Below are positions 7,572-24,915 of a stretch of DNA of 34,870 bases, piece after piece. Source of the stretch: Myxococcales bacterium (GTDB taxonomy: Bacteria; Myxococcota_A; Polyangia; Polyangiales; Polyangiaceae). Numbering within the stretch: position 1 is the first letter of the stretch; each line of letters starts with the position of its first letter. The translations under genes and the position numbers were made by a program. Location: contig JAJYCT010000014.1 in NCBI GenBank assembly GCA_021778125.1, forward strand, positions 1 to 34,870. Reading direction: 5' to 3'. The notes beneath the pieces were generated by a model, which was given only the letters and a program-made list of their open reading frames with translations, had not been told where the DNA came from and did not search any database.

Positions 7572-8338
7572 TGGCTGCTTTGCCCGTCACGAGGGTGACG
7601 GTGCGGGCGCCCATCACGTCGTTCCGCCACCCGTTCTTCGTGGTCGGCTCGCAGCCGAGCTTCGACATTCCGCCGCCGTCCACCGTGCACGGGCACTGCG
7701 CGAGCGCGCTTGGCCGCTGGCCCGATCCGCGCACCTTCTTCTTCGGCATCCATTTTACGTTTCGATCGAAGGTCCGCGATCGGGAGCACCAGCACATCAC
7801 GTCGGCCCTCGGGCCGAAGGCGAAGACCTTCGTGGCCACGCCCGCGGGTCCGCTGCGGGCGACCACCGAGATCACCGTGCAGCCAGTCCTTCGCGAGATG
7901 CTCTTCGACGCCACGATGACGCTCTATCTCGACCCGGCGGTGGGCGAGGCGTTTCGCGCGCCCGTCTTCCCGATGGCGCTCGGCCGGTCGCAGGATCTGG
8001 CGGAGGTAGTGGACGTGCGCCCGGTCTCGCTCGAACGTCCTGCGCGCGCGCGAATCGAGCACACGCTGCTTCCGCGCCTGGTCCGCCCGTGCGTGCGCTT
8101 CGGGGCGACGGTGCTCCTGACGCGTCACGTGTCGGAGCCGCCCGAGCGGCGGGCGACGTTCGCCCAGTACATCGTGCTGCACGAGCCGGTGTTCTTCGGA
8201 GGGGACCCCGATGGATCGCGGACGTTCGATCGCGTCGAGGGAATCGACATCGACGATCTATGGTGCGACCCGACCGCGCTCGACGACGAAGGCTTCGCGC
8301 GCGGCGTGTGGATCCACCGGCTCCAGGATCCGTCGTGA
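7571..8338 (+). CDS. cas5: Cas5 (type I-B, DevS-like)
   Basis: Cas5 caps the 5' handle of the crRNA in Cascade. The 255-aa RAMP protein begins VTRVTVRAPITSFRHPFFVV and continues PSFDIPPPSTVHGHCASALG, the characteristic Cas5 N-terminal block in which a Pro-Pro-S-T turn precedes the first helix. FFFGIHFTFRSK follows. The ATG at 7571 shares one base with the cas7 stop; an upstream GTG at 7559 is possible but less likely. The stop overlaps the cas3 GTG (GTGA). Confidence 0.92.
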   Translation: MAALPVTRVTVRAPITSFRHPFFVVGSQPSFDIPPPSTVHGHCASALGRWPDPRTFFFGIHFTFRSKVRDREHQHITSALGPKAKTFVATPAGPLRATTEITVQPVLREMLFDATMTLYLDPAVGEAFRAPVFPMALGRSQDLAEVVDVRPVSLERPARARIEHTLLPRLVRPCVRFGATVLLTRHVSEPPERRATFAQYIVLHEPVFFGGDPDGSRTFDRVEGIDIDDLWCDPTALDDEGFARGVWIHRLQDPS

Positions 8339-17059: not shown

Positions 17060-17090
17060 GCGCGCTCATCCTGGAATGACCGCTTCGGCC

Positions 17091-17249
17091 GATCAGCTTG
17101 CCGGCTTCGGCCTTCACCGCGACCTCCCACGCGCAAATGGCGGGGACCCCGATGCGGTCGGCCTTGACCCTCGCCCGCTCGGCCTTGGCGCCGAGCTTCT
17201 CGGGCTTCGTCAGCCACCACACCCACGCGTGGGTGTCGAGCACGATCAA
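17091..17249 (-). pseudogene. VapC-type PIN toxin, truncated to 53 codons
   Basis: From TTG 17249, overlapping the antitoxin stop, the frame reads LIVLDTHAWVWWLTKPEKLG and later AICAWEVAVKAEAGKLI, the N-terminal half of a VapC-type PIN RNase with its first acidic residues (D5, E42). After Ile53 the family sequence ends and the frame passes into the esterase gene start. The later catalytic acids are missing, so the toxin should be inactive. Confidence 0.75.
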
Positions 17250-18882: not shown

Positions 18883-19725
18883 TCAGCCGACGAGGTCGGA
18901 GCGTTCGAGGATGCGACGCGCCAGGAGCAGAGCGAGGGTCCCGACCGCCAGGGGCCAGGTGACGCCGACGAGCAGTGCCAGGCGCGAGCCCAGCGTGTTC
19001 GCGAGCCAGAAACCGACGGGCCCGAGGACCGATAGCTCGGGATCGACCCCGCTCAGGATCGCGATCCGCGACGACTCGACCGGATTGAGCGCTGCGAGCA
19101 CGAAGACGACCGGCGGCGACAGACGCCAGCGCAACAGCAGGCCGATGAGCCCGAAGTCGTGCAGCACCGACGCGCCGAGCCAGGCGACGAGCGCGTAGAC
19201 GGTGGCGCGCTCGGTGGACCGTGCAGCGGCGGACACCAGGACGCCGACGCCGACGAACCCGAGCGAGAGCGAAACGACCACGAGCAGGCTTCGCGCGACG
19301 AGTGGCGCGAGGCTCCCCTCGCCCGAGAGCGCCCCGGCGACCAGGGTACCGAGCAGGAGCACGGCGAGCGGCCCCACGATGACCAGCAGGCGCGACGCGA
19401 TCGCCGCGGCGAGCCACTGCTCGCGGCGCACCGGCTGAGCCAGAAGTAGCTCGAAGAGCCCCGTCGACCGCGCGCGGACGACGCTCTGGTGCGTCGCCAC
19501 GAGCGAGACGAGCGGCAGGACGATGACGACGGCATTCGAGACGTTGAGCACGACGCGCGAGAGCCCGGTGAAGCCCAGTACGCTCGACTCGCGCAGCCCG
19601 AGCCACACGAAGGCGCCGAAGACGAGCAGGTAGGCGGCGGCCGTGAAGACCACCCAGCGCGATCGGAGAGCGTCGGCGAGCTCGAGGCGGAAGAAGGCGG
19701 CGCGCGCCGTCGTGGCGGGGGTCAT
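18883..19725 (-). CDS. nosY: NosY ABC transporter permease
   Basis: NosY is the membrane part of the NosFY ABC transporter, which works with NosD in maturing the copper sites of NosZ. The 280-aa protein has about six hydrophobic segments, among them VVFTAAAYLLVFGAFVWLGL, VVIVLPLVSLVATHQSV and LLVIVGPLAVLLLGTLVAGA, with the ARSTGLFELLLAQPVRREQW block typical of ABC-2/NosY permeases. The ATG at 19725 overlaps the nosL stop by one base. It depends on NosF, whose gene here carries a stop codon. Confidence 0.9.
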   Translation of the reverse strand: MTPATTARAAFFRLELADALRSRWVVFTAAAYLLVFGAFVWLGLRESSVLGFTGLSRVVLNVSNAVVIVLPLVSLVATHQSVVRARSTGLFELLLAQPVRREQWLAAAIASRLLVIVGPLAVLLLGTLVAGALSGEGSLAPLVARSLLVVVSLSLGFVGVGVLVSAAARSTERATVYALVAWLGASVLHDFGLIGLLLRWRLSPPVVFVLAALNPVESSRIAILSGVDPELSVLGPVGFWLANTLGSRLALLVGVTWPLAVGTLALLLARRILERSDLVG

Positions 19726-20123
19726 CAGCGGTCTCCTCTCCGCGAGCCGCGGACGTCGGTCTCGATGTCGGCCCATTCTGCGTCGCCGCGCTCGTCCGGG
19801 GCGAAGTCGAAGCCCATCGGCGACGACTGGTTGCGCGCGTAGCGGGCCGTGCGCGCGTCTATCCACGTTCCAGCGGCGGTGTGGACCCAGAGGCGCCGTG
19901 CGTGGCCGCGACCCTCCGCCAGCCATGTGGCCATGCAGCCCGGGTCGTCGAAGAAGACGCGGGTCCCGTCGTCCGTCGTGAGCTGGGCGGCGAAGCGCCG
20001 GTCGCTGACGATCATCGAGCAATTGGCGCACGCCTGCTTCCCCCAGACCGGGTCGACGGCCGCCCCGGCGTCCTGACACGCCACGGTCGCAAGCACCACG
20101 AGCACTCCGGGACGTAGCCTCAT
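19725..20123 (-). CDS. nosL: NosL copper chaperone lipoprotein
   Basis: NosL is an outer-membrane or periplasmic copper(I) lipoprotein that supplies copper for NosZ. The 132-aa product has a signal ending in LATVAC and the NosL core CANCSMIVSDRRFAAQL, with the copper-site Cys and Met, followed by RVFFDDPGCMATWL and YARNQSSPMGFDFAP. ATG 20123 overlaps the nosF stop (ATGA), fixing the start and arguing against longer frames. Order nosF-nosL-nosY differs slightly from the common nosF-nosY-nosL. Confidence 0.9.
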   Translation of the reverse strand: MRLRPGVLVVLATVACQDAGAAVDPVWGKQACANCSMIVSDRRFAAQLTTDDGTRVFFDDPGCMATWLAEGRGHARRLWVHTAAGTWIDARTARYARNQSSPMGFDFAPDERGDAEWADIETDVRGSRRGDR

Positions 20124-20812
20124 CGAACGAGCCTCAGGACAGGCACGTCGGACATCGTGAGGTCCGAAAGGACCTCCCTCGCTGGACCGTCGCGGACGAT
20201 GCGACCCACCTCGAGGTCCACGACCCGGTCGACAAGCTGCTCGATCTCCTCGACCCGGTGCGAGCAAAGTACGGTGATCGCGTTCTGACTGCGCGCGGCG
20301 ACCTGCTCGAAGAAGGCCTCGCGCGCAGTACGGTCGAGGTTTGCAGTTGGCTAGTCGCAGACGAGGACCTGAGCCTCGGACGCAAGGGCCAGCGCAGCGA
20401 GCAGCTTCTGACGCATGCCCCCTGAGAGGTCGCGGAACCGCGTCGGAGCCACCCGCCCGAGATCGAGGCCGAGCCGTCGCGCGCGCGTCGCGACCACCTC
20501 ATCCGGAACGCCTCGCAGCGCGGCAATCGCGCGGACCACCTCGCGGACAGGCGCCTCGATCGGGGGCGCCACCTGCGGGATGTACGCCATCGACCGCAGC
20601 GCCAGCTCCGGCTTTCGAGCCACGTCGACGCCCCCCACGAGGACCTCCCCCTCGACGCGTACGAGGGCGAGCATCGCCCTCATCAGGGTCGTCTTCCCGG
20701 ATCCGTTGGCCCCGACGAAGCCGACGCGCTCGCCCGGCTCGATCCGCAAGCACACGTCGTCGAGCGCTCTGACCACGCCGAACGACTTGGACACATGGCG
20801 GATCTCGATCAT
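20120..20812 (-). pseudogene. nosF: NosF ABC ATPase interrupted by an amber codon at the Walker B Glu
   Basis: NosF is the ATPase of the NosFY transporter needed to mature NosZ. The first 153 codons encode MIEIRHVSKSFGVVRALDDV, Walker A (GANGSGKTT, about 34-42) and the signature RDLSGGMRQK. Codon 154 is TAG (20353-20351), where the family has the catalytic Glu of the D-E-P-T motif. The same frame then continues PTANLDRTAREAFFEQVAA, the H-loop SHRVEEIEQL and a normal C-terminus to 20120, overlapping the nosL ATG as ATGA. The only lesion is a single G to T type change. It may be a real nonsense mutation or a sequencing error. Confidence 0.88.
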
Positions 20813-22155
20813 CGCGAGCTCCCTTCGGACCGCGAGGCCGTCATCGCGGGGTGGGGATCGACCAGCACGCGATGGGCCGCCAGCACCGGAACCGCGTGCG
20901 CGACGGCGTCGATGACGCTCATCGCCGCGGTCCCGTCGAAGAACTGAAGGACGGGGCGCGCCCCCGTCAGCTCGCCGGAGAGCTGCTTGACCTCGAACGC
21001 CACGTCGCCGCGCCCGTCGCGGTCCAGGTCGTATCCTTCGTACTCGGTCCAGTGGTTGCCGTCGAAGCGCACGCCCAGGGCATCGCCTCCGCCCTCCACC
21101 TCCGCGGCAGCGACGTTCTGGTGGAAGTCGTTCGAGAGGAGGCTCAGACCCTCCTCGGAGCTATGCAGGCGAAGGGCGACCTCGTTGAGCGCGAAGACGT
21201 TGCGCTCGAAGACGACCGGGGCGTTCGCCGATCGCGGGGTCCGGTCGATATAGGTTCCGGTGGTGTTCCCGACCAGCCAGTTGTCGCGCACGTCGACGGA
21301 ATCACTCTCCTTGAAGCCGATGCCGACCCCCGCGGGGCCTCGCGCGCCCGCGAGAACGTTTCCCTCGACGTGAAGACGATCGGAGTACATGACGAAGACG
21401 CCGACGACGTCGTTCTCGATCCTGCTGTCGCGCACCGTGGAGTCGTGCGCATACATGAAGTGCGTGCCGTACCGGCCTCGGCGAACGACGTTGCGTTCGA
21501 GCAGGACGCGACGCGAATACCAGACAACGACATCCCTTGAGTCCTCAACCAGACACCGGCGCACGGTCGCATCGTGGGACTCCCAGAGCTTGACGCCGTC
21601 GCCGCGGAGCTCAGGCTCGTCCGCGGTACCCCGCACGCGCGCGTGTTCGAGGACGCACGCCGGACACGGCTCGAAGACGACGCCGAAGAGGGAGTCCTCC
21701 ACGGCGACGTTCGTGACCCGCACGCGCGCGGCCTTCGCCTTGATGCCCGCGTCCTCGGCGGTGTGGCGACGCCCCGAGTGGCGCACCGTCAGGTTGTCGA
21801 TCCAGGCCTCGTCAGCGGTGATCTCGAGGACCGTCCCCGTACCGGTCCCTTCGAGGATCGCGCCACGCACCCCGTGAAGCTCGACCGGCCTGGCCACGAC
21901 GAAGTCGCCCCGGTACGTCTTCGCGCGGAGCCATATCTCACGTGGGCCCGTCGGGTCGCCGAGCGTCGCGATCAGGGCCGGCGCGTCCTCTGCGAAGAAC
22001 GCGCCGGGGGGCGCCGAAAGAAGAGTGGGCCCCTGATCCTCGGGCTGCGGCGCGGGCCCTTGCAGGCCGGCATCGGGCCCGCGCGCGCGCACGGCGAGCG
22101 CGCACGCGGCGATCGCCGCAGCAGCGCCCAGCAGAACGGCGCGCGCCGGCCTCAC
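20809..22155 (-). CDS. nosD: NosD periplasmic copper-site maturation protein
   Basis: NosD is a right-handed beta-helix protein that cooperates with NosFY in assembling the CuZ site. The 448-aa product starts with a signal anchor (VRPARAVLLGAAAAIAACAL) and then shows repeated beta-helix turns such as LEHARVRGTADEPELRGDGV, VRRCLVEDSRDVVVWYSRRV, YGTHFMYAHDSTVRDSRIEN and HVEGNVLAGARGPAGVGIGF, with the NosD-type HWTEYEGYDLDRDGRGD end block. GTG 22155 overlaps the stop of the preceding gene (GTGA). The stop overlaps the nosF ATG (ATGA). Confidence 0.92.
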   Translation of the reverse strand: MRPARAVLLGAAAAIAACALAVRARGPDAGLQGPAPQPEDQGPTLLSAPPGAFFAEDAPALIATLGDPTGPREIWLRAKTYRGDFVVARPVELHGVRGAILEGTGTGTVLEITADEAWIDNLTVRHSGRRHTAEDAGIKAKAARVRVTNVAVEDSLFGVVFEPCPACVLEHARVRGTADEPELRGDGVKLWESHDATVRRCLVEDSRDVVVWYSRRVLLERNVVRRGRYGTHFMYAHDSTVRDSRIENDVVGVFVMYSDRLHVEGNVLAGARGPAGVGIGFKESDSVDVRDNWLVGNTTGTYIDRTPRSANAPVVFERNVFALNEVALRLHSSEEGLSLLSNDFHQNVAAAEVEGGGDALGVRFDGNHWTEYEGYDLDRDGRGDVAFEVKQLSGELTGARPVLQFFDGTAAMSVIDAVAHAVPVLAAHRVLVDPHPAMTASRSEGSSR

Positions 22156-22901
22156 CGCGAGGTTTCCTTGGGAGGAAGGCGCGGACCGACGAGCGCCGCC
22201 CGGCACAATCGCCCGCAGTCCTTCGCTCGCGGACACTCGCGGCACACGCGCCACCGCACCACGACGGCCGCCGCCAGGAACAGGACCCCCGAGGTCGCCA
22301 GCCAGAACCCGGCTGCGGGGACGGCGAACGTCATGAACTGCCCGATCTGGCCGTTGCCGAAGAGCTGCGGCGTGAAGGCAGGGATGTGCAGGGGCGCGTG
22401 CGGGTCGAGGTTGTGCCCGAACGAACGCATCCAGTAGTAGGCGTCGGCGAGGAAGATCGTCGGGAAGGCCAGCCCGGGGATGACGATGAACTTGCCCGCC
22501 TTGCGCCCCGCGAGGAGCGTCAGCGCGAGCACCATCAGCGCGAGCACGCCCACGCCGGCGACGGCGTGCTCGCGCTCGAACGAGGCGGCGTGAGCCAGGT
22601 GCCCCATCCCGATGTAGTGGTTGAGCATGTCGATCTCGCGGACATCGCCGCCCATGCCCCGGAGCGACATCGTCAGACGCAACCCGTGCGGGTACTGGGG
22701 CGCGTAGAGCGTGAGCTTCCACCAGTCGAGGAAGAGAGAGCCCACGTCGGTCCCGATGGCGGCGAGGGAGAGGGCGACGACCCCCCAGCGCCGCCCGTAG
22801 CCCCACGACGTGCCCCCCGCTCCCCCCTCTGCGTCGGCGAAGGCCCTCAGATGCTTGTGCGTGTCCGCGCGGGGCACGCCGGGCGCTCCGGTGGCTTGCA
22901 T
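22152..22901 (-). CDS. NosB-like membrane protein with C-terminal Cys cluster
   Basis: This 249-aa membrane protein follows nosZ and precedes nosD, the position of NosB in clade II nos loci. It has about five hydrophobic segments (near residues 40-60, 115-135, 140-158, 188-208 and 205-222), a conserved-looking DMLNHYIGM motif, and FLADAYYWMRSFGHNLDPHA. The C-terminal tail carries CRECPRAKDCGRLC, a four-Cys cluster that may bind a metal. The precise function of NosB is not known; roles in electron transfer or assembly are proposed from conservation. The start has a good ribosome site (GGGAGAGG). Confidence 0.72.
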   Translation of the reverse strand: MQATGAPGVPRADTHKHLRAFADAEGGAGGTSWGYGRRWGVVALSLAAIGTDVGSLFLDWWKLTLYAPQYPHGLRLTMSLRGMGGDVREIDMLNHYIGMGHLAHAASFEREHAVAGVGVLALMVLALTLLAGRKAGKFIVIPGLAFPTIFLADAYYWMRSFGHNLDPHAPLHIPAFTPQLFGNGQIGQFMTFAVPAAGFWLATSGVLFLAAAVVVRWRVCRECPRAKDCGRLCRAALVGPRLPPKETSR

Positions 22902-22926: not shown

Positions 22927-24915
22927 CTACTTGCCCTTCGGCTTGACGAGCATGTACCCGGTCATCTCGAGGTGCAGCGCCGAGCAGAACTCGGTGCAGT
23001 AGAACGGGTACACGCCGGGCATGTCGGCCTTGAACGTGACGTTCTCGGTCTTGCCGGGCTCGAGGCTCAGGTTGATGTTGTACATGTCGATGGTGAAGCC
23101 GTGCGTCTGGTCCTCGGCCTGCTCGGTGCTCGTGATGTGCAGGTTGACCGTGTCGCCCTCGTTCACCTCGATCTGGTCGGGCACGAAGTGGCTGCGCACG
23201 GCAGTCATGTAGACGTCGACCGTGTCGCCGTTGCGCGTGATGCGCTCCTTTCCGCCCTCGACGGCGTTCGGATCGTGCCCGCCGAGGTACGGGTTGGTCC
23301 CCGGGGGGTAGATCTTCTCGGGGTGGAGCTTGTCCGCCTTGATCATCTGGGCGTAATGCGGCTCCCCGTCGCCGATCGGCAGGTCGTAGATCATCCGCAT
23401 CTTGTCGCCGCTGATGTCGACGAGCTGGAAGTTCTGCGGGTAAAGCGGGCCGACGGGCGTGAACCGGTCGATCGACATCTTGTTCATCGCGACGACGTAC
23501 TTGCCGTCGGGGCTGACCGTGTCGCCCTCGGCCGCGAGGATGTGCCCGATGTTGTAGTGGACGCTCAGCTTCTCGAGGGTCTTGAGGTCGGCGAGCGACC
23601 ACTTCGCCACCTTGCTCTCGAGGAACAGGCTCGTGTAGGCGTTGCCCTTGTCATCGAAGACGGTGTGGAGCGGCCCGAGGCCGAGCTCCACCTGGCCGCG
23701 GATCGAGTCCTTGAACGCCAGAACTGGCACGCCGAACGCGTCCTTGCCCTCGAACTTCTTGTTCGCGATCAAGTCCTTGATCTTGGCGAAGTCGTAGACC
23801 GTACCGTGCGTGTCGAGCTTGCCGCCGACGACGATGCCCGCTCCGTCGGGCGTGACGTCGCAGCCGTGCGGGCTCTTGGGCTCGCCGACGAACGTCAAGA
23901 CCCCCTCGGCTGCGGCGGTCTGCAGCGGCAGGACGCGGATGCCCTTCATCGTGGTCGCCTTGCCGGCGTTGACGAGCTGCTCGCCCTTCCTCCAGTCGAT
24001 GATGTGCAGGTAGTCCATGTCGTTCTGCGAGGCGCCGCTCTCGATCGCCGGCTTGCCCTGCAGTGTCCCGCCCGTCGCCATCTCGGTGTTGAACGAGTTG
24101 ATGAACACCCAGCCGTCGCTCACCTTCTTGCCGGCGTCGGCGAGATCCTGCGAGTACGGAGGCAGCTCCACGCCCCAGCTCTGCTCCGGGACGATGCGGC
24201 CCTTCTTGCGGTCGAACTTCCAGAACATCGCGAGGCCGCGGTACTTGTCCTTGTAGTCCGACAGCGGCGCGTACTCGCGGCCGAGGGGCGTCGGGTACTG
24301 GCTCGTCTCGACGACGTAGTCGGTATTGGGCGTGACGAACGCCCCGCCGTGGTCGCTGCCGACGAGCGGGTTGGCCACGATCTGCTTCGTCATGAAGTCG
24401 GCGAGATCGACGACCGCCACCCGCCCGTTGGCCTTGTCGTTCACGAAGATGAACTGGCCGTCGTAGTCGCCGTTCGTCTCGCTCAGGTTCGGGTGGTGCA
24501 CGTCGCCCCAGCCGAGCGAGTGGGTGCCCTGGGAGCCGGCCGCGAGGACCTTGTTGCTCTCGTCTCCGTAGCCGTAGCCCTGCCATGGCTCGGGCGTGAA
24601 CACGCCGATCGTCTTGAGCTGCCGCATCGACGGCACGCCGATGACGAGGATCTGCCCGGAGTGTCCACCCGAAGCGAAGATGAGGTACTCGTCCTTCTTC
24701 CCCGTCGGCGTGTACGTCTTGAGGGCCGCCTCGACGTCGGCCTCGGACAGGCCGCGCGCGGCCATGAGCGTCTTCAGATCGGCTGATGCTCCGAGCGAGG
24801 TCGTGTCCCTCTGCCCTGCTGCCTGCTGCTCTGCCTTGTTTGTGCAGGCGCCCGCCGAACCAAGGGCACACGCCACCACGCCGGCGAGGGTCGCTCGCCA
24901 CATCCAGGTCTTCAT
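22927..24915 (-). CDS. nosZ: Nitrous-oxide reductase NosZ, Sec-type clade II
   Basis: NosZ reduces N2O to N2 in the periplasm. The 662-aa product has an N-terminal beta-propeller with CuZ histidine motifs (WGDVHHPNLSE, VGSDHGGAFV, EPKSPHGCDV, GEPHYAQM) and a C-terminal cupredoxin domain whose CuA ligands are in FYCTEFCSALHLEM (C640, C644, H648, M651). The signal is Sec-type without a twin-arginine motif and ends in a lipobox-like SAGAC, both features of clade II enzymes. It heads the leftward operon and has a strong ribosome site (GGAGG). A sigma-54-type promoter and a palindrome lie upstream. Activity depends on NosDFY, and nosF is interrupted. Confidence 0.97.
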   Translation of the reverse strand: MKTWMWRATLAGVVACALGSAGACTNKAEQQAAGQRDTTSLGASADLKTLMAARGLSEADVEAALKTYTPTGKKDEYLIFASGGHSGQILVIGVPSMRQLKTIGVFTPEPWQGYGYGDESNKVLAAGSQGTHSLGWGDVHHPNLSETNGDYDGQFIFVNDKANGRVAVVDLADFMTKQIVANPLVGSDHGGAFVTPNTDYVVETSQYPTPLGREYAPLSDYKDKYRGLAMFWKFDRKKGRIVPEQSWGVELPPYSQDLADAGKKVSDGWVFINSFNTEMATGGTLQGKPAIESGASQNDMDYLHIIDWRKGEQLVNAGKATTMKGIRVLPLQTAAAEGVLTFVGEPKSPHGCDVTPDGAGIVVGGKLDTHGTVYDFAKIKDLIANKKFEGKDAFGVPVLAFKDSIRGQVELGLGPLHTVFDDKGNAYTSLFLESKVAKWSLADLKTLEKLSVHYNIGHILAAEGDTVSPDGKYVVAMNKMSIDRFTPVGPLYPQNFQLVDISGDKMRMIYDLPIGDGEPHYAQMIKADKLHPEKIYPPGTNPYLGGHDPNAVEGGKERITRNGDTVDVYMTAVRSHFVPDQIEVNEGDTVNLHITSTEQAEDQTHGFTIDMYNINLSLEPGKTENVTFKADMPGVYPFYCTEFCSALHLEMTGYMLVKPKGK

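Follow-up and report, generated by a model that had tools for sequence, protein, structure and literature searches.

A premature TAG codon at the Walker B glutamate position in the only nosF gene of a Myxococcales draft genome

The nosF gene powers the assembly of the enzyme by which the greenhouse gas N2O is destroyed. Here we describe a metagenome-assembled Myxococcales genome in which the only nosF gene carries a TAG codon in place of the codon for the catalytic glutamate of the Walker B motif, in an otherwise intact frame. On balance, we find a real, recent and ordinary nonsense substitution somewhat more likely than not. A wrong or minority-strain base in the assembly is a serious competing possibility, which we weigh below.

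Results

An in-frame stop at codon 154 of nosF

The window, by which we mean the whole stretch of 34,870 nucleotides analysed, encodes nosF, the gene for the ABC-type ATPase subunit of NosDFY, on its minus strand between nosD and nosL/nosY (20120–20812). The frame runs from an ATG starting at 20812 to a TGA at 20122–20120, and its 230 codons are interrupted at codon 154 by a TAG (20351–20353, minus strand; CTA in plus-strand letters) that is in frame with both. The stop stands in the context ...VLVCD*PTANLD..., where relatives carry VLVCDEPTANLD. When translated with X at the stop, nosF matches the Pfam family ABC_tran with E=4e-20 and, along most of its length, shares 59–67% identity with its counterparts in related genomes. 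Walker A, the Q-loop, the signature, the D-loop and the H-loop can all be read in this frame, on both sides of the TAG; at the catalytic glutamate of Walker B, TAG is found instead. The predicted truncated NosF of 153 residues (20354–20812, minus strand) covers positions 1–133 of the 137 in the ABC_tran profile. It keeps Walker A, the Q-loop, the signature and the Walker B aspartate, and lacks the catalytic glutamate, the D-loop and the H-loop. Codons 155–230 beyond the stop (20123–20350, minus strand) are open and include the D-loop (NLD) and the H-loop (CSHR); no further stop or frameshift was found in nosF downstream of the TAG. The initial annotation had placed an amber codon at the Walker B glutamate of NosF, as the frame, the codon position and the glutamate of homologues confirm. 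Its description of the TAG as the only lesion, with the H-loop and the coupled stop intact, is also borne out, because the D-loop, the H-loop and the overlap of the TGA with the nosL ATG are all present. Judged by its sequence, this is a disrupted nosF gene and not one for a working NosF. We also considered a restart downstream of the TAG; the first in-frame start is a GTG at codon 198, past the H-loop, and would offer no useful restart.

The NosF encoded here is a short form of 230 codons without the C-terminal extension of about 70 residues found in most relatives, whose NosF has 300–309 residues. The extension is likewise absent from NosF of about 217–247 residues in at least ten relatives, in which the glutamate is kept. 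Across related Myxococcota, a long form of about 290–309 residues can be distinguished from a short form of about 217–255 residues without the C-terminal domain of about 70 residues, and the short forms tend to evolve faster after Walker B. The NosF tail in the window (DLTMSDV...LRLVR, 20123–20200, minus strand) looks like the long form's end, as though an in-frame internal deletion had occurred (compared with the NosF proteins of L010/L130, L023, L143, L016 and L134).

The nos cluster and its copy number

The gene is encoded within a nosZ-nosD-nosF-nosL-nosY cluster on the minus strand. The nosZ gene (22927–24915), for a Sec-dependent (clade II) nitrous oxide reductase, is intact and scores 860.7 bits against the TIGR04246 cut-off of 625. 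The open frame of nosD (20809–22806), with a provisional start, is intact over its NosD domain (TIGR04247, 324.7 bits against a cut-off of 300). Downstream of nosF, nosL (19725–20123) encodes a predicted copper chaperone lipoprotein that is just above the Pfam NosL cut-off (24.3 bits against 24) and 37–50% identical to the products of relatives' nosL genes. It is followed by an intact nosY (18883–19725), an ABC-2 permease gene (Pfam ABC2_membrane_2) with 52–69% identity to nosY of closer relatives. The nosL ATG overlaps the nosF TGA (ATGA) and is preceded, 8 bases upstream, by a Shine-Dalgarno-like AGG; the nosY ATG overlaps the nosL TGA.

The genome holds one full-length nosZ, one nosD, one nosY and one nosF, and no second nosF or NosF-like ATPase gene was found in this draft of about 95% completeness, from which a copy might be missing. 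If the lesion is real, no dedicated ATPase would thus be left. The initial annotation had suggested that another ATPase might substitute and had called for a search for a second nosF; no support for a substitute emerged. The next best ABC ATPase in the genome, at 34% identity, is encoded immediately upstream of an ABC-2-like permease gene of its own, the latter assigned by reading its sequence, and we rejected this ATPase as a substitute.

Two gene fragments were seen in addition. A piece of a NosZ sequence lies on another locus of the same genome (L002, 1507–1647, minus strand; contig C296, about 7672–7812). It matches NosZ residues 28–74 with 85% amino-acid identity, and with 84% nucleotide identity over 134 bp, and is the only NosZ match on that locus. 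It is divergent from a gene for an Rrf2-family regulator, and an Rrf2 gene is also found near the intact nos cluster in some relatives (L027, L034–L036). The fragment is possibly the relic of a second nosZ locus that was lost or moved. In the window itself, a truncated PIN-domain sequence (about 17070–17249, minus strand; 47 of 120 profile positions) abuts a lipoprotein-like gene in another frame and looks like the remnant of a PIN-domain gene.

Conservation of the interrupted codon

Glutamate (the E of DEP) occupies the position of the stop in each of the 57 aligned homologues that extend over it, including distant ones from Gammaproteobacteria and Bacteroidota. The solved ABC proteins aligned here (ABCA7, 8edw/8eop) have glutamate, or glutamine in variants with the catalytic Glu-to-Gln exchange. 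An internal stop occurs in one of 43 nosF copies from 41 genomes of the order, namely the present one, and a TAG at the same site was found in none of the relatives' copies in this set. The closest nosF among the relatives compared is 67% identical. Nearly all relatives use GAG at this site, from which TAG is reached by a single G-to-T step. The initial annotation emphasised that the stop falls exactly on the catalytic glutamate; it was right about the position, which says little in itself. Because glutamate codons make up 18 of the 19 sites in the nosF frame at which a G-to-T change creates a stop (17 of 18 without codon 154), and because any nonsense codon before the H-loop would be equally null, the landing place is hardly informative. 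It is unremarkable and needs no special explanation.

Internal stops in the draft genome

The genome was assembled from a metagenome; the draft comprises 597 contigs with a total of 5.93 Mb and has a completeness of about 95%. We surveyed 353 Pfam domain matches in it (56 ABC_tran, 123 Pkinase, 98 Response_reg and 76 HATPase_c) and found a single internal stop, the TAG of nosF. Finding only this one implies a low overall rate of false stops, which are thus not widespread in the assembly. When codon usage was scanned for premature stops in 1.1 Mb of this genome, the top scores came mostly from adjacent genes that share a frame, and the nosF stop itself scored about zero; these scores were set aside as unusable. 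The stop also creates one of the 13 CTAG tetranucleotides of the window; CTAG is much rarer than expected in 1.1 Mb of the genome together with the window (0.31 of the Markov expectation).

Discussion

Origin of the stop codon

A frame open and under selection before and after a TAG could suggest that the codon is read through in this organism, which would place an amino acid at the catalytic site and yield full-length NosF. However, RF1 is encoded (prfA scores above the NCBIfam cut-off), and no gene with the UAG-reading CUA anticodon is among the 42 tRNA genes found; the entry with a 'tag' anticodon in the tRNA list is a tRNA-Leu for CUA codons. In this genome TAG serves as a normal stop codon, terminating 13 of 42 sampled genes. 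Moreover, no other in-frame TAG was found in the 353 domain matches, and none of the relatives carries the same TAG. We therefore rejected genetic recoding, to which we give very little credence. A suppressor tRNA gene missed owing to the 95% completeness of the assembly is possible in principle and unlikely. Fainter still is the prospect that UAG is suppressed in vivo, perhaps at a low level, with NosF activity and N2O reduction throttled by readthrough instead of lost.

The codons behind the stop bear on its age. In a comparison with 17 relatives, the post-stop part of nosF had a relative terminal branch of 0.112 of the tree length, whereas the maximum was 0.080 among 48 operon blocks of equal size drawn from nosZ, pre-stop nosF, nosL and nosY, and GC3 falls to 0.79 after the stop. 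Both observations would fit an older pseudogene with a stop of long standing, the remainder of nosF having drifted since. Such relaxed selection, positive with 17 relatives, may be explained by the short-form effect seen with 35. In the larger tree, several NosF proteins with an intact glutamate had post-to-pre-stop branch ratios equal to or above that of the window, or close to it (1.84 for L160 and 1.74 for L158, against 1.74 for the window); most NosF proteins with high ratios, that of the window included, lack the C-terminal extension. Because short-form NosF proteins with an intact glutamate show the same pattern, the fast post-stop branch need not reflect decay. The drop in GC3 also begins before the stop (0.81 at codons 101–153), and all 12 columns downstream of the stop that are invariant in the 35 relatives are kept here. 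These retained columns suggest that the downstream half of nosF is under selection, or was until very recently, and we consider an older pseudogene very improbable. Since the invariant columns are kept and no further stop or frameshift is present, the lesion is an isolated nonsense codon, whether of very recent origin or due to a consensus error. The initial annotation had taken the intact downstream half to point to the same pair, and both readings stay in contention. If it is an error, one base at 20351–20353 is wrong or comes from a minority strain, and the population has a working nosF. This would be in keeping with a draft in 597 contigs and with the integrity of the remaining nosF and the operon, and a comparable case is known: in the nitrite-reducing Bacillus bataviensis, a single nonsense codon in nirK was taken for a likely artefact of sequencing (PMC3475470). 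Against an error stand the absence of any internal stop from the other 352 domain matches and the nature of the change, a substitution, whereas some platforms typically produce indels in homopolymers. In our judgement, draft assemblies generally call substitutions accurately, and this together with the low background of internal stops favours a real base in the strain that was assembled. The flawless condition of all the rest favours either an error or an allele of very recent origin. The intact other nos genes and the selected appearance of the downstream half count against a mutation, and a pure consensus error would explain them equally well. That the TAG base is real is itself an inference. 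We thus give an error substantial weight, and find it somewhat more probable than not that the organism's only nosF gene has suffered a real, recent and ordinary nonsense substitution.

Predicted consequences

If the substitution is real, one recent G-to-T change from GAG to TAG in the only nosF gene would end its translation after residue 153 in the assembled strain. Because the product would have no catalytic glutamate, D-loop or H-loop, NosDFY would be left without a working ATPase. The output of NosL and NosY may also drop through a polar effect, since the start codon of each overlaps the stop codon of the gene before it; the Shine-Dalgarno-like AGG ahead of nosL could soften it. With the exchange E154Q in NosF, the complex can no longer transfer copper (PMC11573801), and NosFY and NosD are needed for the formation of the CuZ cluster (PMC7558416). 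The expectation in the initial annotation that NosFY should fail if the stop is real would be in line with the E154Q result. NosZ would then probably be exported without its CuZ cluster, and the strain would not be expected to reduce N2O, a phenotype predicted from gene content.

The lesion is an ordinary one, and nothing suggests a new mechanism; our understanding of NosDFY is unchanged either way. If it is real, a genome survey based on nosZ counts would list this organism among the N2O consumers even though its cluster cannot mature the enzyme, making it a small, concrete case for checking accessory genes. If it is an error, it illustrates that one base in a metagenome-assembled genome can produce a false knockout.

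Comparison with known systems

The nirK gene of B. bataviensis resembles the present nosF gene in being an otherwise intact denitrification gene with an isolated nonsense codon suspected to be an artefact. In contrast, B. bataviensis is cultured and its phenotype is known, whereas this nosF comes from a metagenome-assembled genome. The short-form NosF proteins of related Myxococcota (for example L143, 235 residues; L016, 233; L158, 227; L160, 229) share the lack of the C-terminal extension but, unlike the NosF described here, have the glutamate and no stop. The NosF of NosDFY from Pseudomonas stutzeri (PDB 7o0y series) is likewise an ABC ATPase whose gene accompanies nosD, nosL and nosY beside nosZ, and it shares Walker A, the Q-loop, the signature, the D-loop and the H-loop with our frame. 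Its inactive variant E154Q is altered at residue 154, which is also the codon number of the stop, and numbering and aligned ranges suggest that the two positions correspond. The NosF chain of 7o0y comprises 308 residues with the C-terminal extension and the glutamate, compared with 230 codons and a stop in the gene described here.
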